From Azonexus hydrophilus (lineage in GTDB: Bacteria > Pseudomonadota > Gammaproteobacteria > Burkholderiales > Rhodocyclaceae), in contig NZ_CAJHOB010000005.1 in the NCBI RefSeq assembly GCF_905120355.1, positions 62,001 through 126,000 of the forward strand: a stretch of 64,000 nt of DNA. Direction: 5' to 3'. Positions 12,875 through 41,772 of this stretch are shown in pieces (the first letter of the stretch is position 1; every line of letters begins with the position of its first letter). Made by a program: the position numbers and the translations under genes. The notes below the pieces were generated by a model. It was given only the letters and a program-made list of their open reading frames with translations. It was not told the origin of the DNA and ran no database searches.

Positions 12875-13816
12875 ATGAACTTGCAACAACTGCGCATCGT
12901 GCGCGAAGCCATTCGCCAGGATTTCAATCTGACGGAAGTGGCCAACGCCTTATTTACCTCTCAGCCGGGGGTGTCCAAGCACATCAAGGATCTTGAGGAC
13001 GAACTGGGGGTGGAGATTTTCGAGCGTCGTGGCAAGCGCCTGCTTGGCCTGACGGGCCCCGGTCAGGAACTGGCTGGAGTGGTTGAACGCATTCTGCTCG
13101 ACACCCAGAACCTGCGCCGCATCGCCGACCAGTTTGCCAGCCGGGAAACCGGCCATTTCGTGGTGGCGACCACGCACACTCAGGCGCGTTACGCCCTGCC
13201 CAAGGTGATCAAGTGGTTCAAGCAGGATTACCCCAAGGTGCACCTGACGCTGCTGCAGGGCAGCCCGCGCGAGATCGGCGAAATGCTGGCTGCCGGTGAA
13301 GCCGATGTTGGGATCGCCACCGAAGGGCTGGAGGGCAATGACGATCTGGCGACATTTCCCTGCTATCAGTGGCGGCATGCGGTGATCGTGCCACAAGGGC
13401 ATCCGCTGCAGCAGGTCGACAAGCTGACGCTGGATGTCCTGAGTGACTACCCCATCATCACCTACCACGCGGGTTTTACCGGCCGCTCCCATATCGACCA
13501 GGCGTTTGCCAGTGCCGGCATCGTGCCCGATGTGGTGCTGTCGGCCATCGACGCCGATGTGATCAAGACCTATGTCGGTCTGGGGCTGGGCGTGGGGCTA
13601 GTGGCCTCCATGGCCTTTGACCCGGAGCATGATCGCGGTCTGGCGTTGTTGCAGGCGGAAGACCTGTTTCCGCTCAACACGACTCGCCTGGCCGTGCGTA
13701 AAGGGGCCTGGTTGCGCAGCTACACCTATGCCTTTATCGAGAAGGTATCGCCGGACTTGTCCGAAGCCGTGGTCAAGGAGGCCATCCGCCAGAATGGCCG
13801 GGGCGAACAAGGGTGA
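12875..13816 (+). CDS. cysB: LysR-type regulator CysB
   Basis: 313 residues. N-terminal winged HTH (NLQQLRIVREAIRQDFNLTE and TSQPGVSKHIKDLEDELGVE), then an effector domain with CysB-typical TTHTQARYALPKVIKWFKQD, LLQGSPREIGEML, ADVGIATEGL and YHAGFTGRSHIDQAF. These match CysB/Cbl, which senses O-acetylserine/N-acetylserine or sulfate and activates sulfur assimilation. It is unusual only in being the fifth cistron of the transporter operon, making likely an autoregulatory loop through the GAATAAGCAA motifs upstream. Its stop overlaps the start of the EAL gene. Confidence 0.93.
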   Translation: MNLQQLRIVREAIRQDFNLTEVANALFTSQPGVSKHIKDLEDELGVEIFERRGKRLLGLTGPGQELAGVVERILLDTQNLRRIADQFASRETGHFVVATTHTQARYALPKVIKWFKQDYPKVHLTLLQGSPREIGEMLAAGEADVGIATEGLEGNDDLATFPCYQWRHAVIVPQGHPLQQVDKLTLDVLSDYPIITYHAGFTGRSHIDQAFASAGIVPDVVLSAIDADVIKTYVGLGLGVGLVASMAFDPEHDRGLALLQAEDLFPLNTTRLAVRKGAWLRSYTYAFIEKVSPDLSEAVVKEAIRQNGRGEQG

Positions 13817-14691
13817 GCATGGAGGTTGCCGCTGCAGTGAATACCCTGTTGCACTATTTTGATGCGCTCCGTGGCGCCGAGGACGATGATTCCTGCCTGC
13901 GTCTGCAGGCGGGCGAGATCAGCGGTCATTTTCGCGGGCTGGCGCTGAAAAGCGTCTTTCAGCCTCTGTTCTCCAGCCATTCCGGGCAGCCGGTCGCGCA
14001 CGAGGCACTGCTGCGGGCGGCCGATTGCCAGGGACGGTCACTGCTGCCCGGCGAGGTATTTGCTTTTCCCTGCAATGCGCAGGAAATGCTGTTTCTCGAC
14101 CGGTTGTGCCGGGTGGTTCATGCGGGCAATTTCGTGCGGCAGGCGCCGTCGGGTGACCTCTTCCTGAATATTGAAGGGCGTCACCTGCTGGCAGCTTCCA
14201 ACCATGGTCAGACGTTTGAATCCCTGCTCAAGGTGTGTGGCCTGACCCCGGAGCGCGTCGTGCTGGAAATCCTGGAAGCGCGCATCGATGATCTGGGATG
14301 TTTGCAGGAAGCGGTGAGCGGTTATCGCAGCCGGGGGTATCGGGTGGCGATCGACGATTTTGGTTGCGCGCATTCCAATTTCGATCGCCTCTGGCAGCTC
14401 AGCCCGGACATCGTCAAGCTGGATCGCTCGCTGATGGTGCAGGCGGAAGCTAATTCCCGGGCGCGGCGGGTGCTGCCGAAACTGGTGGAGATCATCCACG
14501 AACTCGGTGCCACGGTGGTATGCGAAGGTATAGAGAACCGGACGCAGCACCAGCTGGCGGTCGATGCCGGGGCCGACTGGTTGCAGGGCTATTTCTACGC
14601 CCGTCCTGCTGCCGCACTGTGGCGTGCTCCAGCACAGGCCGCTACGGCATCGCATGCATTTTCGTTTGATCCGGAATGGGCGATACCATGA
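13813..14691 (+). CDS. EAL-domain protein, likely c-di-GMP phosphodiesterase
   Basis: 292 residues, a single EAL domain with no sensor domain beyond about 45 N-terminal residues. Catalytic residues of active EAL enzymes all appear in place: EALLR, the Asn in FLNIEGR, the Glu in LEILEAR, the DD of IDDFG, the Lys in VKLDRSL, EGIEN, and QGYFYARP. Starts either with GTG 13813 (overlapping the cysB stop, GTGA) or ATG 13819. Its stop overlaps the next gene by ATGA. A cytoplasmic c-di-GMP hydrolase locked into a sulfate/thiosulfate uptake operon is unusual. A degenerate paralogue lies at 21909. Confidence 0.86.
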   Translation: MSMEVAAAVNTLLHYFDALRGAEDDDSCLRLQAGEISGHFRGLALKSVFQPLFSSHSGQPVAHEALLRAADCQGRSLLPGEVFAFPCNAQEMLFLDRLCRVVHAGNFVRQAPSGDLFLNIEGRHLLAASNHGQTFESLLKVCGLTPERVVLEILEARIDDLGCLQEAVSGYRSRGYRVAIDDFGCAHSNFDRLWQLSPDIVKLDRSLMVQAEANSRARRVLPKLVEIIHELGATVVCEGIENRTQHQLAVDAGADWLQGYFYARPAAALWRAPAQAATASHAFSFDPEWAIP

Positions 14692-15146
14692 TTATCGACT
14701 GGCCGCACTTCACGCCGTGGTCGGCGCTGGCCGGTGGGGGGCTGATTGGTCTGGCCGCTGCCCTGCTGTTGACCGGCCTGGGCCGGATTGCCGGGATCAG
14801 CGGCATATTTGCCGGCTTGTTGCAGCCATTTGCGGCAGAAAATCGCTGGCGCTGGGCTTTTTTTCTCGGCCTGTTGTTCAGCCCCTGGTTGCTGCGGACC
14901 TTGCGTCCCGGGCAGCCAGCGTTCCCTGACGCTGACATTACTGCGCCAGGACAGTGGCTGCTGTTGCTGGTGGCGGGTGTGCTGGTGGGTTACGGCACCC
15001 GCATGGCCAACGGGTGTACCAGCGGCCACGGTGTCTGCGGCCTGGCACGCTTGTCGCCCCGCTCCCTGGTGGCGGTGCTGGTGTTCATGGGTAGCGCCAT
15101 GCTGACTGTGGCGCTGCTGCGCCATCTGCCGGGAGGCGTGTCATGA
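14688..15146 (+). CDS. YeeE/YedE family half-protein, first (thiosulfate/sulfur transport)
   Basis: 152 residues with about four membrane segments and the YeeE/YedE (DUF395) signature GTRMANGCTSGHGVCGLARL, whose cysteines correspond to the sulfur-relay cysteines of thiosulfate transporter TsuA. This is the short, half-size form, normally encoded as a pair. Start ATG 14688 overlaps the EAL stop and its own stop overlaps the next half. It should move thiosulfate or another sulfur compound across the inner membrane; substrate is inferred. Confidence 0.85.
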   Translation: MIIDWPHFTPWSALAGGGLIGLAAALLLTGLGRIAGISGIFAGLLQPFAAENRWRWAFFLGLLFSPWLLRTLRPGQPAFPDADITAPGQWLLLLVAGVLVGYGTRMANGCTSGHGVCGLARLSPRSLVAVLVFMGSAMLTVALLRHLPGGVS

Positions 15147-15565
15147 GCTTGCTGCTAGCGTGCTTGAGTGGACTCATTTTCGGCCTGGGACTGCTGCTGT
15201 CGGGCATGAGCAATCCGGCCAAGGTGCAGGGGTTTCTGGACATTTCCGGGGCCTGGGACCCTTCGCTGGCGTTCACCATGGCGGGGGCGATCGGCGTCGC
15301 CATGCCCTTTTTCTTCTGGGCCCGGCAGCGATCCCGAACCTGGTTGGGTTTGCCGCTGGCCCTGCCGGTCAGCGCCCGGGTGGACCGCCGGCTGGTGTTC
15401 GGTAGTGTGCTGTTTGGTATTGGCTGGGGACTGTCCGGCATTTGCCCCGGCCCTGCCCTGGTTGGGCTGGGAGGTGGATTTTTGCCGGCCATGGTGTTTG
15501 TCGCCGGTTTTTGTGGCGGCATCCTCGCCTTCAATCGGCGTTCCCGATCGACAGGGGACGCCTGA
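15143..15565 (+). CDS. YeeE/YedE family half-protein, second
   Basis: 140 residues, about four membrane segments, with GLLLSGMSNPAKVQGFLDI and GWGLSGICPGPALVGLG, the second-half motifs of the YeeE/YedE family including the conserved Cys. Coupled by ATGA to the first half; the two together equal one full-length transporter. It is last in the operon that began at sbp or the leader ORF, and a bidirectional hairpin follows. Confidence 0.85.
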   Translation: MSLLLACLSGLIFGLGLLLSGMSNPAKVQGFLDISGAWDPSLAFTMAGAIGVAMPFFFWARQRSRTWLGLPLALPVSARVDRRLVFGSVLFGIGWGLSGICPGPALVGLGGGFLPAMVFVAGFCGGILAFNRRSRSTGDA

Positions 15566-15617: not shown

Positions 15618-16907
15618 TCAGCCGAGCACGTCCTTCCAGATGGTGGTGGCCCAGGCCCGGGTGTAGATGCCTTCTTCCACCGACGCTTCCTTGGAGACGC
15701 CGCCGGAACCTTCGACCACCAGGGGCACCTTCTTTTCCGGGTGGTAGCGGTGCACCGAATCGACATGGATGGCCCGCTTGCCATCGACCATGGAATAACA
15801 GGTGTTGGCCATCAGGGTGGGTTGCGGTTCCCGGCCGGAGAAGATTTCCACAATGGCGGCGGCCACGGCCTTGCCGTGCTGGTTGGCCATGTGGCCCGAC
15901 TTGGGCATCAGGGGCGCGGCGGAGAGGGTGTCGCCCAGTACATGCACCTTCGGCACGGCGGTGGATTCCAGGGTGATCCAGTTCACCTCGGCCCAGCGGT
16001 CGTTCACATTGACTACGCCGATCTTGCGGGCGATGTCGGCGGCGCGTTGCTGGGGCAGGATGTTGAGCACGTCCCCCGTCACCTTTTCCCCCAGCTCACT
16101 GGTGACCGTGCGGCTGGCCGCGTCCAGGGCCACTACGTTCCACTTGGGCCGGTACTCGATGATCTCCTTGTAGTCTTTCTCCCAGACGCTGAGGAAGAGC
16201 TTTTCCTTGGAGATGATCTTGTCGTTGGCGTCCAGCACCAGTACCTTGGATTTGGGCTTGTGCTCCTTGAAGTAGGAGGCGATCAGGCTGGCCCGCTCAT
16301 AGGGGCCGGGGGGGCAGCGGTAGGGAGCCTTGGGGATGGAGAGCACATAGGTGCCGCCGTCCGGCAGGTCTTCCAGTTGTTTGCGCAGCGCCAGGGTCTG
16401 GGGGCCGGCTTTCCAGGCGTGCAGCACGGTTTCCCGGGCCTTCTCGTCGTAGCCGGCGATGCTGTCGTAGTTGAAGTCGAAGCCGGGGGAAAGCACCAGC
16501 CGGTCGTAGCTGAAATCCCCGGCCTTGTCAGTCTTGACGACGCGCTTCTCCGTATCCACATCGGTGACGCTGGCGGTCACCACCTTGATGCCCCAGTGCT
16601 TCTTCAGGTTGTAGTAGCTGTGCACCGTGGTTTCGAACTTGCGGTGTCCTGCCAGCACTTCGTTGGAGGTGGGGCAGGAGATGAATTCCTTCTGGCGTTC
16701 GATCAGCACCACCTCGATGGCGCCATGGCTCCACTTGCGCAGGTATTTGGCGGCGGTGGCGCCGCCGAAACCGGCGCCGATCACCACCACCCGGCCCACG
16801 GGCTTCTTGCCCTTGGCGGCCAGGGCGGTGCCAGGGACGGCAGCAAAGGCAGCGCTGGCGCCGATGCCTTGCAGCAGGCGGCGACGTTCAGGATTGAATT
16901 TGTTCAT
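15618..16907 (-). CDS. fccB: Flavocytochrome c sulfide dehydrogenase, flavoprotein subunit
   Basis: 429 residues. A twin-arginine-type leader (ERRRLLQGIGASAAFAAVPG) exports the folded flavoprotein. The FAD motif RVVVIGAGFGGATAAKYLRK follows at about residue 38. Redox cysteines fit SCPTSNEVLAG and YRCPPGPYERA; HVLGDTLSAAPLMPKSGHMA binds the flavin; the C-terminal FCSD flavin-binding domain ends the protein. It oxidises sulfide to sulfur or polysulfide in the periplasm and passes electrons to the cytochrome subunit encoded immediately upstream. Good AAGGGAGA ribosome-binding site. Confidence 0.93.
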   Translation of the reverse strand: MNKFNPERRRLLQGIGASAAFAAVPGTALAAKGKKPVGRVVVIGAGFGGATAAKYLRKWSHGAIEVVLIERQKEFISCPTSNEVLAGHRKFETTVHSYYNLKKHWGIKVVTASVTDVDTEKRVVKTDKAGDFSYDRLVLSPGFDFNYDSIAGYDEKARETVLHAWKAGPQTLALRKQLEDLPDGGTYVLSIPKAPYRCPPGPYERASLIASYFKEHKPKSKVLVLDANDKIISKEKLFLSVWEKDYKEIIEYRPKWNVVALDAASRTVTSELGEKVTGDVLNILPQQRAADIARKIGVVNVNDRWAEVNWITLESTAVPKVHVLGDTLSAAPLMPKSGHMANQHGKAVAAAIVEIFSGREPQPTLMANTCYSMVDGKRAIHVDSVHRYHPEKKVPLVVEGSGGVSKEASVEEGIYTRAWATTIWKDVLG

Positions 16908-16919
16908 GGCGGGTCTCCC

Positions 16920-17228
16920 TTATTTCTGCCTGGAAAAGTAGTCCGCCAGGATGGCGATTTCTTCGTCGGTATAGCCCTTGGCCAGCTGGTGCATGATGGT
17001 GGCGGGGCGGGTGCCTTGCTTGTAGGCCTTCAGGACTTCTTCCAGCCAGTCCTTGTCCTTGCCGGCGATACCGGGAATGGCGGCGGTGGATTTGCCGTCG
17101 GTGCCGTGGCAGTTGGCGCAATTGGCGGCAAAGTAGGGCGGCGGGGTCTGGGGCAGGCCGCTGGCCTGGGCCAGGCCCGCACTGCTTGCCAGCAGGGCCA
17201 GGGTGAGGGGGATGGTGCGGATTTTCAT
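16920..17228 (-). CDS. Mono-haem c-type cytochrome, likely FccA/SoxE-like subunit
   Basis: 102 residues: signal peptide ending about AQASG, then a single CANCH haem motif and a downstream Met in TIMHQLAKGYTDEEIAIL that can be the sixth ligand. Class I cytochrome of about 80 mature residues. A strong AAGGAGGT ribosome-binding site precedes it. Placement directly before fccB indicates that it is the haem subunit of the sulfide dehydrogenase; some FccA subunits have two haems, this has one. Haem attachment would need the Ccm system at 23027-29689. Confidence 0.88.
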   Translation of the reverse strand: MKIRTIPLTLALLASSAGLAQASGLPQTPPPYFAANCANCHGTDGKSTAAIPGIAGKDKDWLEEVLKAYKQGTRPATIMHQLAKGYTDEEIAILADYFSRQK

Positions 17229-17252
17229 GGGACCTCCTTCAGGAATGGCGCC

Positions 17253-17576
17253 TTACTGCGCCGTCGTTTCAAAAGACTGTTGCTGGCCCTGGTTGTCCAG
17301 CCAGGCGATGCCGACCTTGTCGCCCGCCTTGACGCCCTTGAGGCGCCAGCCGAACAGGGGATCGGCGGCAATGCCGGAGCCGGTCTGTACCCGGGCCACC
17401 GGCTGCCCGTTCAGGGAAAGCTCGATTTCGGTGATGAAGTGGGCCGGCCGGGGGCGTCCCTGCTCGTCCTTGCTCAGGCCAGTGAGCATGGGGTGGTTGA
17501 GCAGCACCTTGATCAGGGCCGTGTGGTCCGGGTCGTTTTGCAGGCTGGCGCGCATGCGAATGGGGAATTTATTCAT
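17253..17576 (-). CDS. soxZ: Thiosulfate oxidation carrier protein SoxZ
   Basis: 107 residues, the usual length. Shows the SoxZ immunoglobulin-like pattern: IRMRASLQNDPDHTALIKVL, LNHPMLTGLSKDEQGRPRPA, HFITEIELSLNGQPV, and DKVGIAWLDNQGQQQSFE. It has no signal peptide and is normally exported bound to SoxY, whose Tat leader serves both. soxY is eight bases upstream. Confidence 0.94.
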   Translation of the reverse strand: MNKFPIRMRASLQNDPDHTALIKVLLNHPMLTGLSKDEQGRPRPAHFITEIELSLNGQPVARVQTGSGIAADPLFGWRLKGVKAGDKVGIAWLDNQGQQQSFETTAQ

Positions 17577-17584
17577 GGTTTACC

Positions 17585-18040
17585 TCACCCGGGCAGGCAG
17601 CCGCCGAGAATGACGCGCACTGTCCTGCTGTTGCTGTAGAGCTGGCCGTTGGCCTGGACCAGGACGTGCAGCTTCGAGGTTTCCGCCAGCTTGATCCGGG
17701 CTTCGAACCAGGGCTGCAGGCGGGGATTGAAGCTAGCATCGGCCAGGAGCGGGAATAGATTGCGCTCGCCGATCAGGAGAATCCGCTCCACCTGCGGCAG
17801 GTCGGTCTGGATTTCCACCGGGATATTGGCGCCGTTTTCCGCCACATCGGGCGCAACGATGCGGATTGCATCGCTGTCCCGGGGCGGCTTGAGGCCCAGG
17901 GCGGCGTAGACCGAGGCCGGGCTGCGGGCGTTGAAGGCGTTGCTGTTGCGGCTGGCGGGGCTGTTGGCCCAGGCCCCGCCCGGCGCCAGATAGGCGCTGA
18001 GCAGGGCGAGACCGCCGGCGAGGAAGTGGCGACGTTGCAA
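17585..18040 (-). CDS. soxY: Sulfur carrier protein SoxY
   Basis: 151 residues. Tat-type leader (QRRHFLAGGLALLSAYLAPG), SoxY body (IPVEIQTDLPQVERILLIGE, FEARIKLAETSKLHVLVQ), and a C-terminal swinging arm carrying the substrate-binding Cys: VILGGCLPG. The usual ending is GGCGG, so this arm is slightly longer and bears Leu-Pro after the cysteine. The start is TTG at 18040, preceded by GAGGAAA. Forms the SoxYZ carrier to which sulfur intermediates attach. No soxAX, soxB or soxCD lies in the window. Confidence 0.93.
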   Translation of the reverse strand: MQRRHFLAGGLALLSAYLAPGGAWANSPASRNSNAFNARSPASVYAALGLKPPRDSDAIRIVAPDVAENGANIPVEIQTDLPQVERILLIGERNLFPLLADASFNPRLQPWFEARIKLAETSKLHVLVQANGQLYSNSRTVRVILGGCLPG

Positions 18041-18055
18041 GACCGTTTCCTCCGC

Positions 18056-19048
18056 TCAATAGCTCTGGCCGGACTTCTCGCCCGGCAGGCCGCTGCCCAC
18101 CTGGGCTGCCGCCCGGAAGAAGGCCGCCAGGGTCTGCGGAGTGACGCTCTGGAACAGGGCCGCGATGACCTGGGGGTCGCTCATGGCCTGCACCCAGCGT
18201 CCGGAGAGGCGGGCGTCCGCCAGCTGGGTCAGGGCCTGGATCAGTTCCGGATTGACCATGGCGTTGGCCCAGGCCACCAGGCTCTCCGGCTCCAGGTTTT
18301 TGGCGATGAAATCGGTCTGCAGCAGGGTGGTGCTCGCCGTCAGCCATTTTTCCAGCAGGGCGGGTTGGCCTAGGCGCAGCAGACCATTGACGGTCTCGGT
18401 GCGGGTCAGGGTGCGCACCCAGGCATTCACCAGGCGGGGGTTGCCCAACTTACCCAGGGCGGTGATCAGCTTGGGGTTGGCGGCCACGTTCAGCCACTTT
18501 TCCACCACCACCGGGTCGGAGAGCTTGAGGCCCACGGCGATGGTGTTGGGGTTGATGAGGGTTTCCACATAGCGCTGCAGCAGGTTGTCCTGGGCGTTGC
18601 GGCCGATCAGGTTTGCAAACACCGGCGGGTAGAAGCCGGCTTCCACCCAGCGCACCAGCAGCTTGTCGTCGGCCAGCCGGGCCAGGGTGTCGGCCAGGCG
18701 CGGGTCCGTGAAGGCGGTGGCCCAGCTGTTGAGCAGCACGGGATCGGCGGATTGCAGGGCGGCATCGATCAGGCGCGGGTCGGTGATGAGCTGCAGCCAG
18801 CCGTCCACATAGGCCTTGTCCTGGCCCAGCAGAGCCTTGGCCAGCGAAGCTGGAGAGGTGAGTTCCTTGATCCATTGCTGCGCTTGTTGAGTGGTAACGA
18901 CCTTGCCCGCATCGGGTGAGGCCAGCTGGCCGACGATGGCCTGAACCTGGGCCGGATCGGCCAGATTGTTCTGCGCCAGGGCCGGTTGTCCGGCGAGCAG
19001 GGCGGCGCCGACGGCGGCCGCGAACAGGGATTGCTTGAAGGGAGTCAT
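18056..19048 (-). CDS. Secreted 25-residue-repeat protein B (10 repeats), unknown function
   Basis: About 330 residues with a Sec signal peptide ending ALAQ. From about residue 59 to 309 it is ten consecutive repeats of 25 residues (one of 26), each opening with Trp or Tyr and carrying two Asp/Asn-Pro turns 12 residues apart, for example WLQLITDPRLIDAALQSADP. This pattern predicts paired short helices stacking into a periplasmic solenoid. No catalytic motif or cysteine is evident. ATG 19048 is preferred to 19054 since AAGG is seven bases before it. A longer paralogue lies two genes upstream and soxY 15 bases downstream. I do not recognise the family; a scaffold for the sulfur-oxidation proteins is a guess. 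Confidence 0.85.
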   Translation of the reverse strand: MTPFKQSLFAAAVGAALLAGQPALAQNNLADPAQVQAIVGQLASPDAGKVVTTQQAQQWIKELTSPASLAKALLGQDKAYVDGWLQLITDPRLIDAALQSADPVLLNSWATAFTDPRLADTLARLADDKLLVRWVEAGFYPPVFANLIGRNAQDNLLQRYVETLINPNTIAVGLKLSDPVVVEKWLNVAANPKLITALGKLGNPRLVNAWVRTLTRTETVNGLLRLGQPALLEKWLTASTTLLQTDFIAKNLEPESLVAWANAMVNPELIQALTQLADARLSGRWVQAMSDPQVIAALFQSVTPQTLAAFFRAAAQVGSGLPGEKSGQSY

Positions 19049-19057
19049 GGTCATTCC

Positions 19058-19762
19058 TTACAGATCGCCGTTGGCACCGGCCTGGATGATGTCCGCCAGG
19101 CCCTGGCGCAGCTGGATGGCGCCCTGGCGCAGGGCGTCGGGAATACGGTCGGGGTTGGGCAGGTCATCCACCCAGCGCACGTCCCAGTCGAGCATCACCA
19201 GCCAGATCTTCTGGTTGGCGTCTTCCACCACGGCGATGCGGCAGGGCAGGAAGATCACGAATTCCAGGCTGTAATCGAGCAGTTCCCGGGCGATGTTGGC
19301 GTCGCAGAAGTTGAAGATTTCCACCCGCGGCGTGGGCTTGCCGGTGGTGGCGGCCACGTCCTTCCAGATGGCGTTCACGCCGACGAACTTGAAGTTGATC
19401 TTGTTGGCCCGGGCCTTCATGGAGGCCACCACGTCGTCGTAGCTGAGGCCGGGCTTGGCCTCCACCTTGTAGGCCAGCAGGTTGATCAGGTCCCGCAGCG
19501 ACAGGGGCGACAGGGCCAGGCTGCTCTGCACGAAGCGGTTGCGGGCTTCTGGGGTGATCGGGTCGAGCATGGTGTTGGGCGTGTGCCGGCGGGCTTCCGG
19601 CACGGGCACCGGGTATTTGTCCGGCAGGGTGTAACTGCCTTTGCCGGTTTGCTGCTGGGGGGCGCCGCTGCCGTACTGGGCCAGGGCGGAACCGCTGGCC
19701 AGGGTGAAGGCCAGGGCGAGGGCCGTGGCCAGGGAACGCGGGGGGATGGAATGCCGGGTCAT
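19058..19762 (-). CDS. Secreted DUF302 domain protein
   Basis: 234 residues: signal peptide ending SALAQ, a proline-rich linker, then a DUF302 domain from about residue 105 (SYDDVVASMKARANKINFKF, then TPRVEIFNFCDANIARELLD and FVIFLPCRIAVVEDANQK). The two cysteines (FCDA and LPCR) are typical of the domain and could hold sulfur or redox chemistry. The C-terminal 40 residues are helical (DALRQGAIQLRQGLADIIQ). It sits between the two repeat-protein genes with gaps of one and three to nine bases, so the three are surely co-expressed. DUF302 function is not established. Confidence 0.85.
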   Translation of the reverse strand: MTRHSIPPRSLATALALAFTLASGSALAQYGSGAPQQQTGKGSYTLPDKYPVPVPEARRHTPNTMLDPITPEARNRFVQSSLALSPLSLRDLINLLAYKVEAKPGLSYDDVVASMKARANKINFKFVGVNAIWKDVAATTGKPTPRVEIFNFCDANIARELLDYSLEFVIFLPCRIAVVEDANQKIWLVMLDWDVRWVDDLPNPDRIPDALRQGAIQLRQGLADIIQAGANGDL

Positions 19763-19763
19763 G

Positions 19764-20975
19764 TCATTTCCCTTTCTTCTGGGTGTTCTGGGCAGCGGCC
19801 CGTTGCTGCAGGCCGTGGGCGCTCTGGGCGGAAGCCCGCAGCCCCTGGGCCAGGGCGCGCAGGCTGGTGTCGAGCAGCTTGGGGTCGGCGGACAGCATCA
19901 GGGCGTTGAGCACCCGGGGCTGGGTCAGGGCGTTCAGGTAGGGGGCGCTGATGCGCGGGTCGCTCCAGGCCAGCACGCTGTCGATGAAGGCGGGCTGGGT
20001 CAGGGAGAGGATCCACTGGTTGATCAGCACCGGGTCGGTGGTCTGGACGATGGCATCCACCACCTTGGGCTGGGTCAGGGTGGCGATCCACGGGCCCAGC
20101 AGTTTCGGGTCGGCAAAGCGCAGCAGGGCATCCACCAGGCGCGGGTCGGTGGCGAGCTTGAGCCAGGCGCGCACTGCCTCCGGCTCGGCGAAGCGGATCA
20201 GGGCGTCGAGGAAGCGGGGATCGGTGAAGGCGCTCACGTAGGCGGCAATGGCCTTGTCGTCGGCGACCTTGAGGAAGGCATCCACCACCTTGGGATTGGC
20301 GGCGGCCAGCAGCCACTGGCTCCAGAGCTTGGCGTCCGCCACCCTGGCCAGGGGTTCGATGATCTTCGGGTCGGTGAACACCAGGGCCAGCTGGCTGATG
20401 TATTTGGGATCAGCCCAGCTCAGGCTGGCTTCGATCAGTTTCGGATTGCCGAGCAGGCTGATCCAGGCGTTGGTCAGTTTCGGGTCGCCCAGCTTCAGGG
20501 CGGCATTGAGCAGGCGGGGATCGGTGAAGGTCTTCAGCCACTGTTCCAGCACCCGTTTGTCGGCCAGGCCGAGGGCGGCGTCGACAAATTTCGGGTCGGT
20601 AAAGCCCGTCACCCACTGCTGTGCCAGGGTCGGGTCGGCCGCCTTGAGCACGTTGGCCACCAGGGCCGGGTTGGTCATGATGTCCACCCAGCGGTTGATG
20701 TTTTCCGCATTGCCCTGCTTGAGCAGGGCTTCAATGGTTTCGGCGCGGGTCAGCACTCTGACCCAGCCGGCCAGGGTCTGCGGGTCCACCAGGCGGGCGA
20801 ATTCGCCGATGGAATCCGGGGCGGCCAGGGCGCTGGCGGCTGTATCGGCCATCTTGCCGGCAGTCTTGCCGTCCAAGGCGTACTGGGCCAGCGCCGGCTG
20901 GGCCAGGGTCAACGCCGTGGCGATGGCCAGGGGGCGTAACGTGGCGCGCCACGGGTTGCGGGGTGAAACGGGCAT
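19764..20975 (-). CDS. Secreted 25-residue-repeat protein A (12 repeats), unknown function
   Basis: 403 residues with a basic start and Sec signal peptide ending PALAQ. Residues 71-370 are exactly twelve 25-residue repeats without an indel, consensus W-[VIL]-x-x-[FLA]-T-[DQN]-P-[KR]-[LVF]-[VLI]-[DN]-A-[LA]-[LI]-[KR]-[LF]-[AG]-[DE]-P, for example WLKLATDPRLVDALLRFADP. A basic, Gln-rich tail of 33 residues follows. Predicted periplasmic alpha-solenoid. First gene of the seven-gene operon that runs through DUF302, repeat protein B, SoxYZ, cytochrome and FccB. AAGGAG precedes the ATG. Because the repeat DNA lacks stops, a long spurious frame exists on the other strand. Confidence 0.87.
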   Translation of the reverse strand: MPVSPRNPWRATLRPLAIATALTLAQPALAQYALDGKTAGKMADTAASALAAPDSIGEFARLVDPQTLAGWVRVLTRAETIEALLKQGNAENINRWVDIMTNPALVANVLKAADPTLAQQWVTGFTDPKFVDAALGLADKRVLEQWLKTFTDPRLLNAALKLGDPKLTNAWISLLGNPKLIEASLSWADPKYISQLALVFTDPKIIEPLARVADAKLWSQWLLAAANPKVVDAFLKVADDKAIAAYVSAFTDPRFLDALIRFAEPEAVRAWLKLATDPRLVDALLRFADPKLLGPWIATLTQPKVVDAIVQTTDPVLINQWILSLTQPAFIDSVLAWSDPRISAPYLNALTQPRVLNALMLSADPKLLDTSLRALAQGLRASAQSAHGLQQRAAAQNTQKKGK

Positions 20976-21471: not shown

Positions 21472-21834
21472 TTGGCGGTGACGGTGATGGCAGTAGATGT
21501 TGATCGGGCAGCTGGCGGCGGTCCTCACGAAAAACGCCCTGCTTGCCTGCCGACCAAGCAGCGCAACGCTTTGAGCAAGCTCTTTGAGCGTCCCGACTTC
21601 ACGCCAGAGGAGGTGCATGCCCTGGGTCATGCGCGCTTGCTCAAGGTGAGTGGTCTCGGGCCCCGGGGGCTCGACATCATTGCCGACTGGCTGGCGGCCC
21701 ATGGCCTGCTGCTGACCAGCCAGCAGGAAGCGAGCCGGCTTGGGCGGCAGGCCCGGCGGGTCGACCAGGCCATCCGCTTTCTTCAGCGCTGCGGCTACGA
21801 AATCAGGCCGCCGGCATCCCTGACCGGAGATTGA
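21472..21834 (+). CDS. Small helix-hairpin-helix protein resembling the RNA polymerase alpha C-terminal domain
   Basis: About 115-120 residues. The centre (HARLLKVSGLGPRGLDIIAD then WLAAHGL) follows the alpha-CTD/helix-hairpin-helix spacing LLK-x3-LG-x3-L-x2-I-x3-LA-x2-GL, a DNA-backbone or protein-binding fold. It is preceded by LSKLFERPDFTPEEVHAL and followed by a basic helical region (QARRVDQAIRFLQRCGYEI). Start uncertain: TTG 21472 or ATG 21487. Stand-alone alpha-CTD-like proteins are not common, and function is unknown; a DNA-binding role is inferred. Confidence 0.6.
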   Translation: MAVTVMAVDVDRAAGGGPHEKRPACLPTKQRNALSKLFERPDFTPEEVHALGHARLLKVSGLGPRGLDIIADWLAAHGLLLTSQQEASRLGRQARRVDQAIRFLQRCGYEIRPPASLTGD

Positions 21835-21908: not shown

Positions 21909-22727
21909 TCAGGCGGCGGGCCGGAGTCCGTTCAGCCTGGCAGCTTCGCTGCGGGCCTGCGGCAGCGCTGTGTTGCAAGCCTCCGGTCGGGCTTGCCGTA
22001 GCTCGCCGGTGCCGTGCGGGGTGTCATGCGGCGTAGCGCCGTCCTCTAGCAGGAGGCGGGCACCGATGGCCCGGGTTTTTCGGGCGATGTCACGTAGTCG
22101 CTGCGGCGACTCGAGTTGGCTGGCGTCGAGGCGCACGATGTCCGGCCGCAACTGTTCGAGCAGGGCGTCATTCGGATCGCCACGGCCAAAACGGTGAATG
22201 GCGAGGTGATAGCCCTGCGCCTGGTAATTGGTGATGGCTCGCTGCACCGGGTCGCCCGGAAGCAGGCCGCCGACTTCAAGTTCGAGGGTGACTTGCTGCG
22301 GGCTCAGGCCGCAGGTGCGCAGCAAGGCGGCAAAAACCTGGCCATGGTTGGCCGGCACGTTGAGTACGTGGCGAGGGTGGACCTTGAGCAGCAAGTTGCT
22401 GCGTTCCGGATGGTGCAGGTAATTGAGGGCATGCAAGGTGCGCACCAGGCGGTCCAGGTAGATGAATTCCTCATCATCGTAGGGCAGCACGAAAACGCTG
22501 TGCGGGTCGAGTGGTGTGCCGTGCCGCAGGCTGACGGCCTGCAGGTGCGCGGCATGGCCGTAGATCTGGCCGGTGGTGGTATCGACGATGGGCAGGAATT
22601 GCGAACTCAGTTGCAGGTTGGCGAAATGGGCCAGCACCCTGCCCTGTGCCGTGCTGAAGGTGGTCGGGCCGGCGGGTTTGGCGGTGCGGCCGGCGTTGAG
22701 GTAATGCACAAGATCGGTGAACGGCAT
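21909..22727 (-). CDS. Degenerate EAL-domain protein
   Basis: 272 residues from ATG 22727 (AAGGA upstream); the frame continues to 22988 but without support. It aligns by eye with the EAL protein at 13813 (shared LDRL-x-R-x2-HA-x-N, NHGQ-x-F-x2-LL-x2-CGL) yet the catalytic set is lost: HAAHLQ in place of EALLR, LKVHPR for the Asn motif, IHRFGRG for DDFG, no EG-x-E and no QGY at the end. It should not hydrolyse c-di-GMP and may bind it or a protein partner. The C-terminal 45 residues are unrelated and Pro/Arg-rich. Confidence 0.78.
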   Translation of the reverse strand: MPFTDLVHYLNAGRTAKPAGPTTFSTAQGRVLAHFANLQLSSQFLPIVDTTTGQIYGHAAHLQAVSLRHGTPLDPHSVFVLPYDDEEFIYLDRLVRTLHALNYLHHPERSNLLLKVHPRHVLNVPANHGQVFAALLRTCGLSPQQVTLELEVGGLLPGDPVQRAITNYQAQGYHLAIHRFGRGDPNDALLEQLRPDIVRLDASQLESPQRLRDIARKTRAIGARLLLEDGATPHDTPHGTGELRQARPEACNTALPQARSEAARLNGLRPAA

Positions 22728-23026
22728 GACGAAATTCCTTCGCGGGGAGCTGAATGACGCGGGCAGTGTGCCGGGCGTGCCGCGCCGCGAGAACGAAGAA
22801 ATACGTATGAGCATATGCCTGGCCTCGGGCGGAAAATGGGCTATCGGCCTGGGGTGTTGCGGGAGTGCGGGCGTGATGCTCGGCAGGCGCGAGGAGATTT
22901 CTGTGCTGGAAGTACCAGGAGGCATGCGCCGGGGCGATATTTTTGCGGTTTGATTCGCCTCAATCTGCCGGTACACTGGCGCCTCCATAATTTGCCCACC
23001 CTGATCCGGGCACTTGCCCTTCTGCC
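22728..23026. other. Divergent intergenic region before ccmA
   Basis: About 300 bases without a convincing gene between the divergent degenerate EAL gene and ccmA. It contains two eight-base palindromes close together, ATACGTAT (22801-22808) and GCATATGC (22812-22819), which may be operator or promoter elements. Confidence 0.4.
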
Positions 23027-41589: not shown

Positions 41590-41772
41590 TAAAGTCCCCG
41601 CGGGTGCCGTCAGGCCGGCATCCTGAACCGGAGTTCAGAGTGGCTGCTTCCCTTTCGCATCAGGTGCGTTCGCGGGGAACGCGCACAACAGCGACATCGT
41701 GGTCAGCAACCGATGCCAATCAGCATTGGTTCAAGGAATTATGGCCTTAACAAACACCGCAGGGAGCAATCG
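41590..41772 (-). ncRNA. ssrS: 6S RNA
   Basis: Lies directly downstream of zapA on the same strand, the conserved ssrS position in proteobacteria. The transcript folds end to end: CCCUGCGG (41764-41757) pairs with CCGCGGGG (41603-41596); CCUUGAACC (about 41730) pairs with GGUUCAGG (about 41628) with one bulge; AGGCC pairs with GGCCU. This long hairpin with an open centre is the 6S fold that mimics an open promoter and traps sigma-70 RNA polymerase. The ends are approximate, giving about 183 nt, near the known length. Confidence 0.82.

Follow-up and report, generated by a model that had tools for sequence, protein, structure and literature searches.

The window analysed here is a stretch of 64,000 nucleotides from Azonexus hydrophilus (RefSeq assembly GCF_905120355.1, contig NZ_CAJHOB010000005.1, positions 62,001 to 126,000 of the forward strand), and our study concerns a seven-gene operon in it that encodes a repeat protein (A), a DUF302 protein, a second repeat protein (B), SoxY, SoxZ, a cytochrome c and the flavoprotein FccB (Table 1). 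The operon is a conserved module. In that order the seven genes occupy the minus strand between positions 20975 and 15618, exactly where an earlier note made from the sequence had placed them. The tight spacing described there was also borne out: from A to FccB the intergenic gaps are 1, 3, 15, 8, 24 and 12 bases, and the second of them becomes the 9 bases of the earlier note if the second ATG of B is taken as its start. The signal peptides of A, B and the DUF302 protein were judged by eye rather than with a predictor. A pair of genes for YeeE/YedE half proteins is convergent to the operon.

Table 1. The seven operon genes and their immediate neighbours, with positions in the window.
Feature	Position	Strand	Remarks
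Repeat protein A	19764..20975	-	403 amino acids; first operon gene; likely Sec signal (by eye); 12 x 25-residue Asp/Asn-Pro units
DUF302 protein	19058..19762	-	234 amino acids; likely Sec signal (by eye); invariant Cys153 and Cys174
Repeat protein B	18056..19054	-	332 amino acids; about 10 looser 25-residue units
SoxY sulfur carrier	17585..18040	-	TTG start; unusual C-terminus GGCLPG
SoxZ	17253..17576	-	Pfam
Mono-haem cytochrome c, exported, SoxE/FccA-like	16920..17228	-	Pfam
FccB/SoxF flavoprotein of flavocytochrome c sulfide dehydrogenase	15618..16907	-	FCSD domains
YeeE/YedE half protein, DUF6691, PmpB-like	15143..15565	+	matches N-terminal part of Sulf_transp
YeeE/YedE half protein, PmpA-like	14676..15146	+	matches C-terminal half of Sulf_transp
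Divergent neighbour gene, outside the module	21472..21834	+	in ten loci of the genus its relative adjoins cytochrome-FccB; sits at the apparent site of insertion

Repeat protein A is built of 12 units of exactly 25 residues, without insertions or deletions, followed by a partial 13th, and their consensus is roughly DPKLLxxWLxxFTDPRLVDALLRFA. Each unit comprises two amphipathic half-units of 12-13 residues, both opened by Asp/Asn-Pro in most copies. The 12 exact repeats of the earlier note are exact in length and not in sequence, which varies from unit to unit; its ten repeats in B stand as about ten units, which are looser and include a one-residue shift. The self-similarity of A (BLOSUM62, signal removed) peaks at offsets of 25, 50, 75, 100 and 125 residues with 1.1-1.4 per residue, compared with at most -0.34 in 200 shuffles, and that of B peaks at offset 25 with 0.47, its shuffles reaching at most -0.23. 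Since Tandem Repeats Finder detected no DNA array in the operon stretch, the repeat units have diverged at the DNA level. The two proteins share 31% identity in a two-row alignment, and neither scores over the cut-off for any Pfam or NCBIfam family, so that they stay, as had been supposed, outside any well-characterised family.

Methionine accounts for 1.0% of the residues of the window's A and for 17.5-30.2% in five of its relatives. At the 60 alignment columns that hold methionine in at least four of these five, the residues of A-type proteins are 84% hydrophobic and 1% methionine, and the window's A mostly has Leu, Val, Phe, Ala and Ile there; therefore, the trait common to the repeat family is a hydrophobic face, not methionine. 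Such a face suits a non-polar ligand and speaks against metal binding or methionine-based scavenging of oxidants.

An AlphaFold2 model of A, computed from ten A-type sequences, consists entirely of helices (mean predicted local distance difference test, pLDDT, 75.6; predicted template modelling score, pTM, 0.67). Its repeat region forms short helices, mostly of 8-12 residues, and longer ones stand at both ends. With moderate confidence the model supports the alpha-solenoid predicted earlier, and A is likely a solenoid, the curvature of which the model leaves unfixed. The structural neighbours of the model are designed helical repeats, armadillo and HEAT-type proteins with Z up to 13.5, a level common for helical repeats that makes these generic matches only; no specific relative of A was found in the structure libraries. 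The alphaRep designs likewise gave summed weak profile matches to A in which no single stretch matches alone. As modelled, A resembles the HEAT, armadillo and designed solenoids in its tandem short helices, but its 25-residue unit is shorter than the usual units of HEAT and armadillo repeats. Matches to sequences in the PDB, namely a styrene monooxygenase (0.2), a spore germination protein (0.0088) and a macrodomain Ter protein (0.26), each consisted of a single weak stretch and were taken as chance.

The SoxY, SoxZ, DUF302, cytochrome c and FCSD domains of the remaining genes all score above their Pfam cut-offs. The SoxYZ carrier was recognised through PF13501 (93.4 bits) and PF08770 (90.9 bits), and the flavocytochrome c through PF21706 (153.8 bits), PF09242 (66.5 bits) and PF00034 (34.5 bits); the window's SoxY falls below the NCBIfam cut-off for a true SoxY (112.1 vs 125). 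In its cytochrome and its FccB with FCSD domains, the pair is like other FccAB/SoxEF pairs, and its FccB shares 75% identity with the Azospira sp. I13 protein; what sets it apart from the known pairs is its place in a single operon together with A, DUF302, B and SoxYZ. The two YeeE/YedE half proteins match PF04143 at 35.7 and 27.9 bits (cut-off 27). The DUF302 protein scores 41.8 bits against a cut-off of 23, and its model (41 sequences, pLDDT 85.2) has the known DUF302 fold, with Z of 14.0-15.6 to 1j3m, 1q9u and 7tj1. Cys153 and Cys174 are invariant in all 41 aligned rows, which were the window and 40 hand-picked loci of the 80 surveyed.

A search for relatives with A alone gave no match in 99 other genomes, of which 59 belong to the same genus; a profile of the units of A and B matched eight further genomes in the class (of 368) and seven in the order (of 398). 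The eight include one match (G338) that resembles a cytoplasmic HEAT-type protein and was treated as false. Gene order was surveyed by scanning contigs with an alignment of the DUF302 subfamily, keeping the best 80 of 190 relatives. As a result, we identified the full order A-DUF302-B-SoxY-SoxZ-cytochrome-FccB in four surveyed loci, one of them betaproteobacterial (Azospira sp. I13, L058) and three alphaproteobacterial (Phaeospirillum, L059; Rhodoblastus, L060; and a Rhodospirillales metagenome-assembled genome, L063). Their identity to the window is 50-57% for A, 61-69% for DUF302, 41-45% for B and 68-75% for FccB, and A keeps its 12 units without insertions or deletions in all five operons. 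The YeeE pair is present in three of the four, and in two of the four it lies downstream on the same strand. The SoxY proteins of L058, L059 and L063 end in GGCLPG as the window's does, and that of L060 has the same letters followed by an unreadable codon. This motif, present in all five operons, occurs in none of the 20 other surveyed SoxY proteins, whose endings are GGCGG (16), GGCV (3) and GGCG (1).

Shorter layouts also occur. Nine loci of Sulfuricella, Sulfuritalea and relatives (L061, L062, L064-L070) have YeeE, a repeat gene with methionine-rich units and DUF302, in this order; in G610 and G753 (L065 and L066), the repeat protein between YeeE and DUF302 is long. Nine alphaproteobacterial loci (L078, L082, L084-L087, L090, L091, L125) have a repeat gene and DUF302. 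The proteins of the family range from about 200 to 480 amino acids between lineages, the starts or frames of two longer ones (L058, L087) being unsure. Scored with the A/B profile, eight of 13 repeat-like proteins reached 31-496 bits, compared with at most 8.8 for shuffled decoys; five Met/Asn-Pro proteins (P0012, P0017, P0023, P0025, P0026) did not rise above the decoys and were not counted as homologues, although they stand at DUF302 loci. In Gammaproteobacteria, genes of the DUF302 subfamily often have soxYZ and YeeE close by, together with Met/Pro-rich proteins that in some cases carry a CxxCH motif and were not taken as kin of A. At L097, L103, L116 and L118, one of them from the Olavius algarvensis Gamma 3 symbiont, we found cytochrome, FccB, SoxY, SoxZ and DUF302 and no repeat gene.

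Two further sets of exported proteins were observed. Five genomes of one genus (g337: G513, G552, G624, G713, G742; L022-L045) hold 5-9 scattered profile matches each, with exported Asp/Asn-Pro repeats. Other exported Met/Asn-Pro proteins, mostly beside DUF302 (L048:11578-14090, L012:1616-2221, L071, L074, L077, L080), carry MNPAAYxxW units or NPMMGM tracts with one CxxCH motif and were not counted as homologues of A.

Special attention was given to the linkage between repeat genes and DUF302 in the 80 loci, which had been picked by DUF302 and not by repeats. A strict count, limited to profile matches and cleared of overlaps and of the doubtful L114, placed 29 repeat genes (22 loci) no more than 3 kilobases (kb) from DUF302, in 432 kb of sequence, and two farther away, in 786 kb, a 26-fold higher density per base near DUF302. 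A loose count gave 40 repeat genes at 30 loci within 3 kb and two farther; it takes in proteins outside the profile, the overlapping pair of L087 and the spurious-looking L114, and misses the methionine-rich gene beside DUF302 in L074. The 40 become 39 without overlaps, 38 without L114 and 29 once a profile match is required, and an antisense open frame in L060 was left out of all these counts. On a tree of DUF302, the loose repeat label needs 7 changes, compared with 25.6 in shuffles, so it is clustered in clades, although near-copies inflate the figure. The closest partner of the repeat proteins is DUF302 rather than SoxYZ: the linkage to DUF302 and sulfur genes supposed in the earlier note recurs across the survey, with its emphasis on SoxYZ displaced.

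Around the 22 strict loci, SoxY and FccB occur within 8 kb at 4, YeeE at 12 more, and none of the three at 6; in reading these figures, it is important to consider that at 13 of these loci the sequence falls short of 8 kb on a side and that five of the six loci without a marker are on contigs shorter than 12 kb. The earlier note had counted it against its own proposal if the pair were mostly outside sulfur-oxidation loci. This is partly so for SoxY and FccB; YeeE/YedE, however, accompanies most of the remaining loci, and overall the survey does not overturn the proposal.

Within the genus, the region looks altered by an insertion. Ten of 75 other genomes of the genus carry an FccB identical to the window's at 68-73% of residues in one comparison and 66.5-71.6% in another, and in all ten loci cytochrome-FccB adjoins a 42-49% identical relative of the divergent neighbour gene. 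In the window, A, DUF302, B, SoxY and SoxZ sit between these two; in the ten loci, of which 8.5-15 kb each were fetched, the five gave no tblastn match at 1e-5, and they therefore look inserted in the window. Gain here is the simple reading and loss elsewhere is possible. The five may have come alone or together with cytochrome-FccB, both being possible; the closest FccB to the window's is that of Azospira.

The genome of the window is 99.99% complete and contains two SoxY and two FccB genes; a second SoxYZ pair lies at G000:C1:252812-253096 (L055) and the second FccB at G000:C9:9502-10770. SoxB and SoxA had no match in it, and the same searches gave matches over the cut-off in each of five other genomes; DsrA had no match either, its control genomes matching only below the cut-off. 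Judged by gene content among the Sox and Dsr routes searched, the genome seems to lack both canonical thiosulfate oxidation and the reverse-Dsr route for oxidising stored sulfur, which makes the thiosulfate-oxidising Sox setting of the earlier note unlikely. Sulfide should therefore end as zero-valent sulfur and not as sulfate by Sox. SoxA and SoxB are present together in five genomes with relatives of A or its methionine-rich kin, and lack of these two genes is thus no condition for having the repeat family. As background, the zero-valent sulfur that FccAB produces arises in the periplasm and can be carried by SoxYZ.

With A and B as the unassigned parts and the holding of sulfur as the unassigned step, we tentatively propose that the operon encodes a module for oxidising sulfide in the periplasm, with a product that remains zero-valent, and that A and B may bind or coat this sulfur. 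Cytochrome-FccB would oxidise sulfide, as is established for its family, and the resulting sulfur would be either loaded on SoxYZ, at the cysteine of its variant SoxY, or freed as polysulfide. A and B, as long helical arrays, might then hold the hydrophobic sulfur as a coat or sponge, and DUF302, through its two invariant cysteines, might shuttle it among carrier, store and YeeE/YedE importer. Import of sulfur by a YeeE-like protein is described for SoxT1A of Hyphomicrobium in an excerpt of PMC11582611. A wider claim is more doubtful: that solenoids of the Asp/Asn-Pro type, presenting either hydrophobic residues or methionine on one face, are a second and structurally distinct class of periplasmic sulfur-storage protein, which coats or solubilises zero-valent sulfur. 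The class would be dedicated to DUF302, one branch of it also to a special SoxY, and would have spread as a movable cassette between Alpha- and Betaproteobacteria.

Several observations weigh against sulfur holding by A and B. Both proteins are only mildly hydrophobic (grand average of hydropathy 0.08 for A and 0.06 for B), and no repeat gene lies within 3 kb at 50 of the 80 DUF302 loci in the loose count or 58 in the strict one. SoxY is present in 14 of 15 profile-positive genomes (13 of 14 without G338); since 190 of the 369 genomes in the class carry it in any case, this lends weak support. The soxEF genes of Azospira suillum PS may belong to the same operon as that of the window. Their deletion did not clearly slow perchlorate-coupled sulfide oxidation (0.40 vs 0.42 mM per hour in the soxEF comparison), omics did not implicate them, and the activity was credited to perchlorate reductase, in cultures where sulfur globules were observed, according to passages of PMC5358917. 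Given that assignment, the module may matter under other conditions. A passage of PMC11582611 judges the Hyphomicrobium half proteins PmpAB unrelated to sulfur oxidation, and some DUF302 genes stand apart from sulfur genes, for example beside fixG in Bradyrhizobium (an excerpt of PMC6515984).

The storage of sulfur has one main competitor that fits the evidence almost as well and that we rate as somewhat less probable: A and B as protein scaffolds that dock SoxYZ, DUF302 and cytochrome-FccB, so that sulfur is handed over without release. Helical solenoids commonly bind proteins, and the nearest structures to the A model are designed helical repeats and armadillo or HEAT-type proteins; 12 units free of insertions and deletions in five operons would suit fixed docking sites, and the inserted-looking genes bring SoxYZ along with A, B and DUF302. 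Fixed docking is harder to reconcile with the varying protein length between lineages, with the 18 of 22 strict loci that lack SoxY and FccB in the 8 kb searched (subject to the truncated flanks noted above), and with the four loci where DUF302, SoxYZ and FccAB occur and no repeat gene was found. A more general part in the envelope, as spacers of the cell wall or outer membrane with an indirect link to sulfur, would accord with the six strict loci without a marker (five on contigs shorter than 12 kb) and with the scattered matches in genus g337; it is improbable, since repeat genes are linked to DUF302, often with YeeE as well, in clades of DUF302 that stand apart, and since SoxY is found in 13 of the 14 profile-positive genomes left after G338 is set aside, against about half in the background.

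Also improbable, and ranked after the envelope role, are periplasmic chaperones for hydrophobic segments, akin to the STI1/DP domains of the eukaryotic co-chaperones Sti1/Hop, ubiquilin and Sgt2. The hydrophobic groove of these domains binds hydrophobic clients, and the helix-breaking Asp/Asn-Pro pairs with short amphipathic helices, methionine-rich in the relatives of A, resemble the Sgt2 helical hand and Sti1 DP as described in part of PMC8010706. The methionine-rich relative P0019 matches Pfam UBQLN1 at 7e-14, as do three of ten A-type members at E up to 1. The P0019 match, however, has no stretch that passes alone and may reflect composition, and neither A nor B had an STI1 or UBQLN1 family listed in Pfam at E up to 1. 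STI1/DP domains are small five-helix domains, whereas A is a long regular array with 1% methionine; moreover, the partners found, among the sulfur markers and DUF302 that were sought, are sulfur genes and DUF302 and not a secretion or folding set. Sacrificial scavenging of oxidants by methionine-rich members, like a methionine-rich periplasmic peptide that Azospira reportedly has, would draw on the methionine content of the five relatives. For A and B it is disfavoured by their sequence, given the 1.0% methionine of A and the other hydrophobic residues at the equivalent sites, and we regard this role as very improbable.

Among the known proteins closest to A and B are the Sgp proteins of Allochromatium and ALG67575.1 of Beggiatoa, envelope proteins of sulfur globules, compared by their described features. 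Export, the lack of a domain and proline periodicity are the marks by which a globule envelope protein was recognised (portions of PMC7356093; compare PMC10386293). A and B share these marks, with signals judged by eye and prolines spaced at 25 and 12-13 residues, together with the link to periplasmic sulfur oxidation; they differ in being larger, strictly 25-residue periodic and modelled as all-helical. The Sgp proteins are called extremely hydrophobic in a passage of PMC10386293, and the hydropathy of A and B does not approach that description. DUF302 in sulfur-oxidation or sox clusters is already published for Thermithiobacillus, Acidithiobacillus and Sulfitobacter, the last also with YeeE/YedE, and the portions of these reports that describe the clusters mention no repeat proteins (PMC5037610, PMC5248467, PMC11034169); a role in trithionate oxidation was proposed in PMC5037610. 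No description of the repeat proteins was found among the matches listed in open PubMed Central text, with subscription papers outside that scope, so what appears to be undescribed is the solenoid part within a sulfide-oxidation operon.

Two open questions are touched by the module: how periplasmic elemental sulfur is held outside purple sulfur bacteria, and what DUF302 does in sulfur clusters. Both become directly testable here: the genes involved are defined, Azospira has members in culture, and one site within a single genus provides a natural comparison of presence and absence. If the repeat proteins do bind sulfur, they would be a new material for handling zero-valent sulfur.

A scan of the operon region gave no promoter-like site, and terminators were at chance level (9 vs 7.8 expected); GC content is 0.62-0.68 across 14-21 kb, with no clear GC island. 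A defence role for A, DUF302 and B was rejected, as none of them matched a PADLOC defence family, and so was an origin of A and DUF302 in mobile DNA, since A had no relative among viral contigs or plasmids and the DUF302 subfamily none among viral contigs. EAL-domain-like genes flank the region at 21909-22988 (over the Pfam cut-off) and 13813-14691 (by eye), the latter adjoining a CysB-like regulator at 12875-13816, also assigned by eye. Farther along the window, a 6S RNA lies at 41591-41768 on the minus strand (Rfam RF00013, 61 bits).

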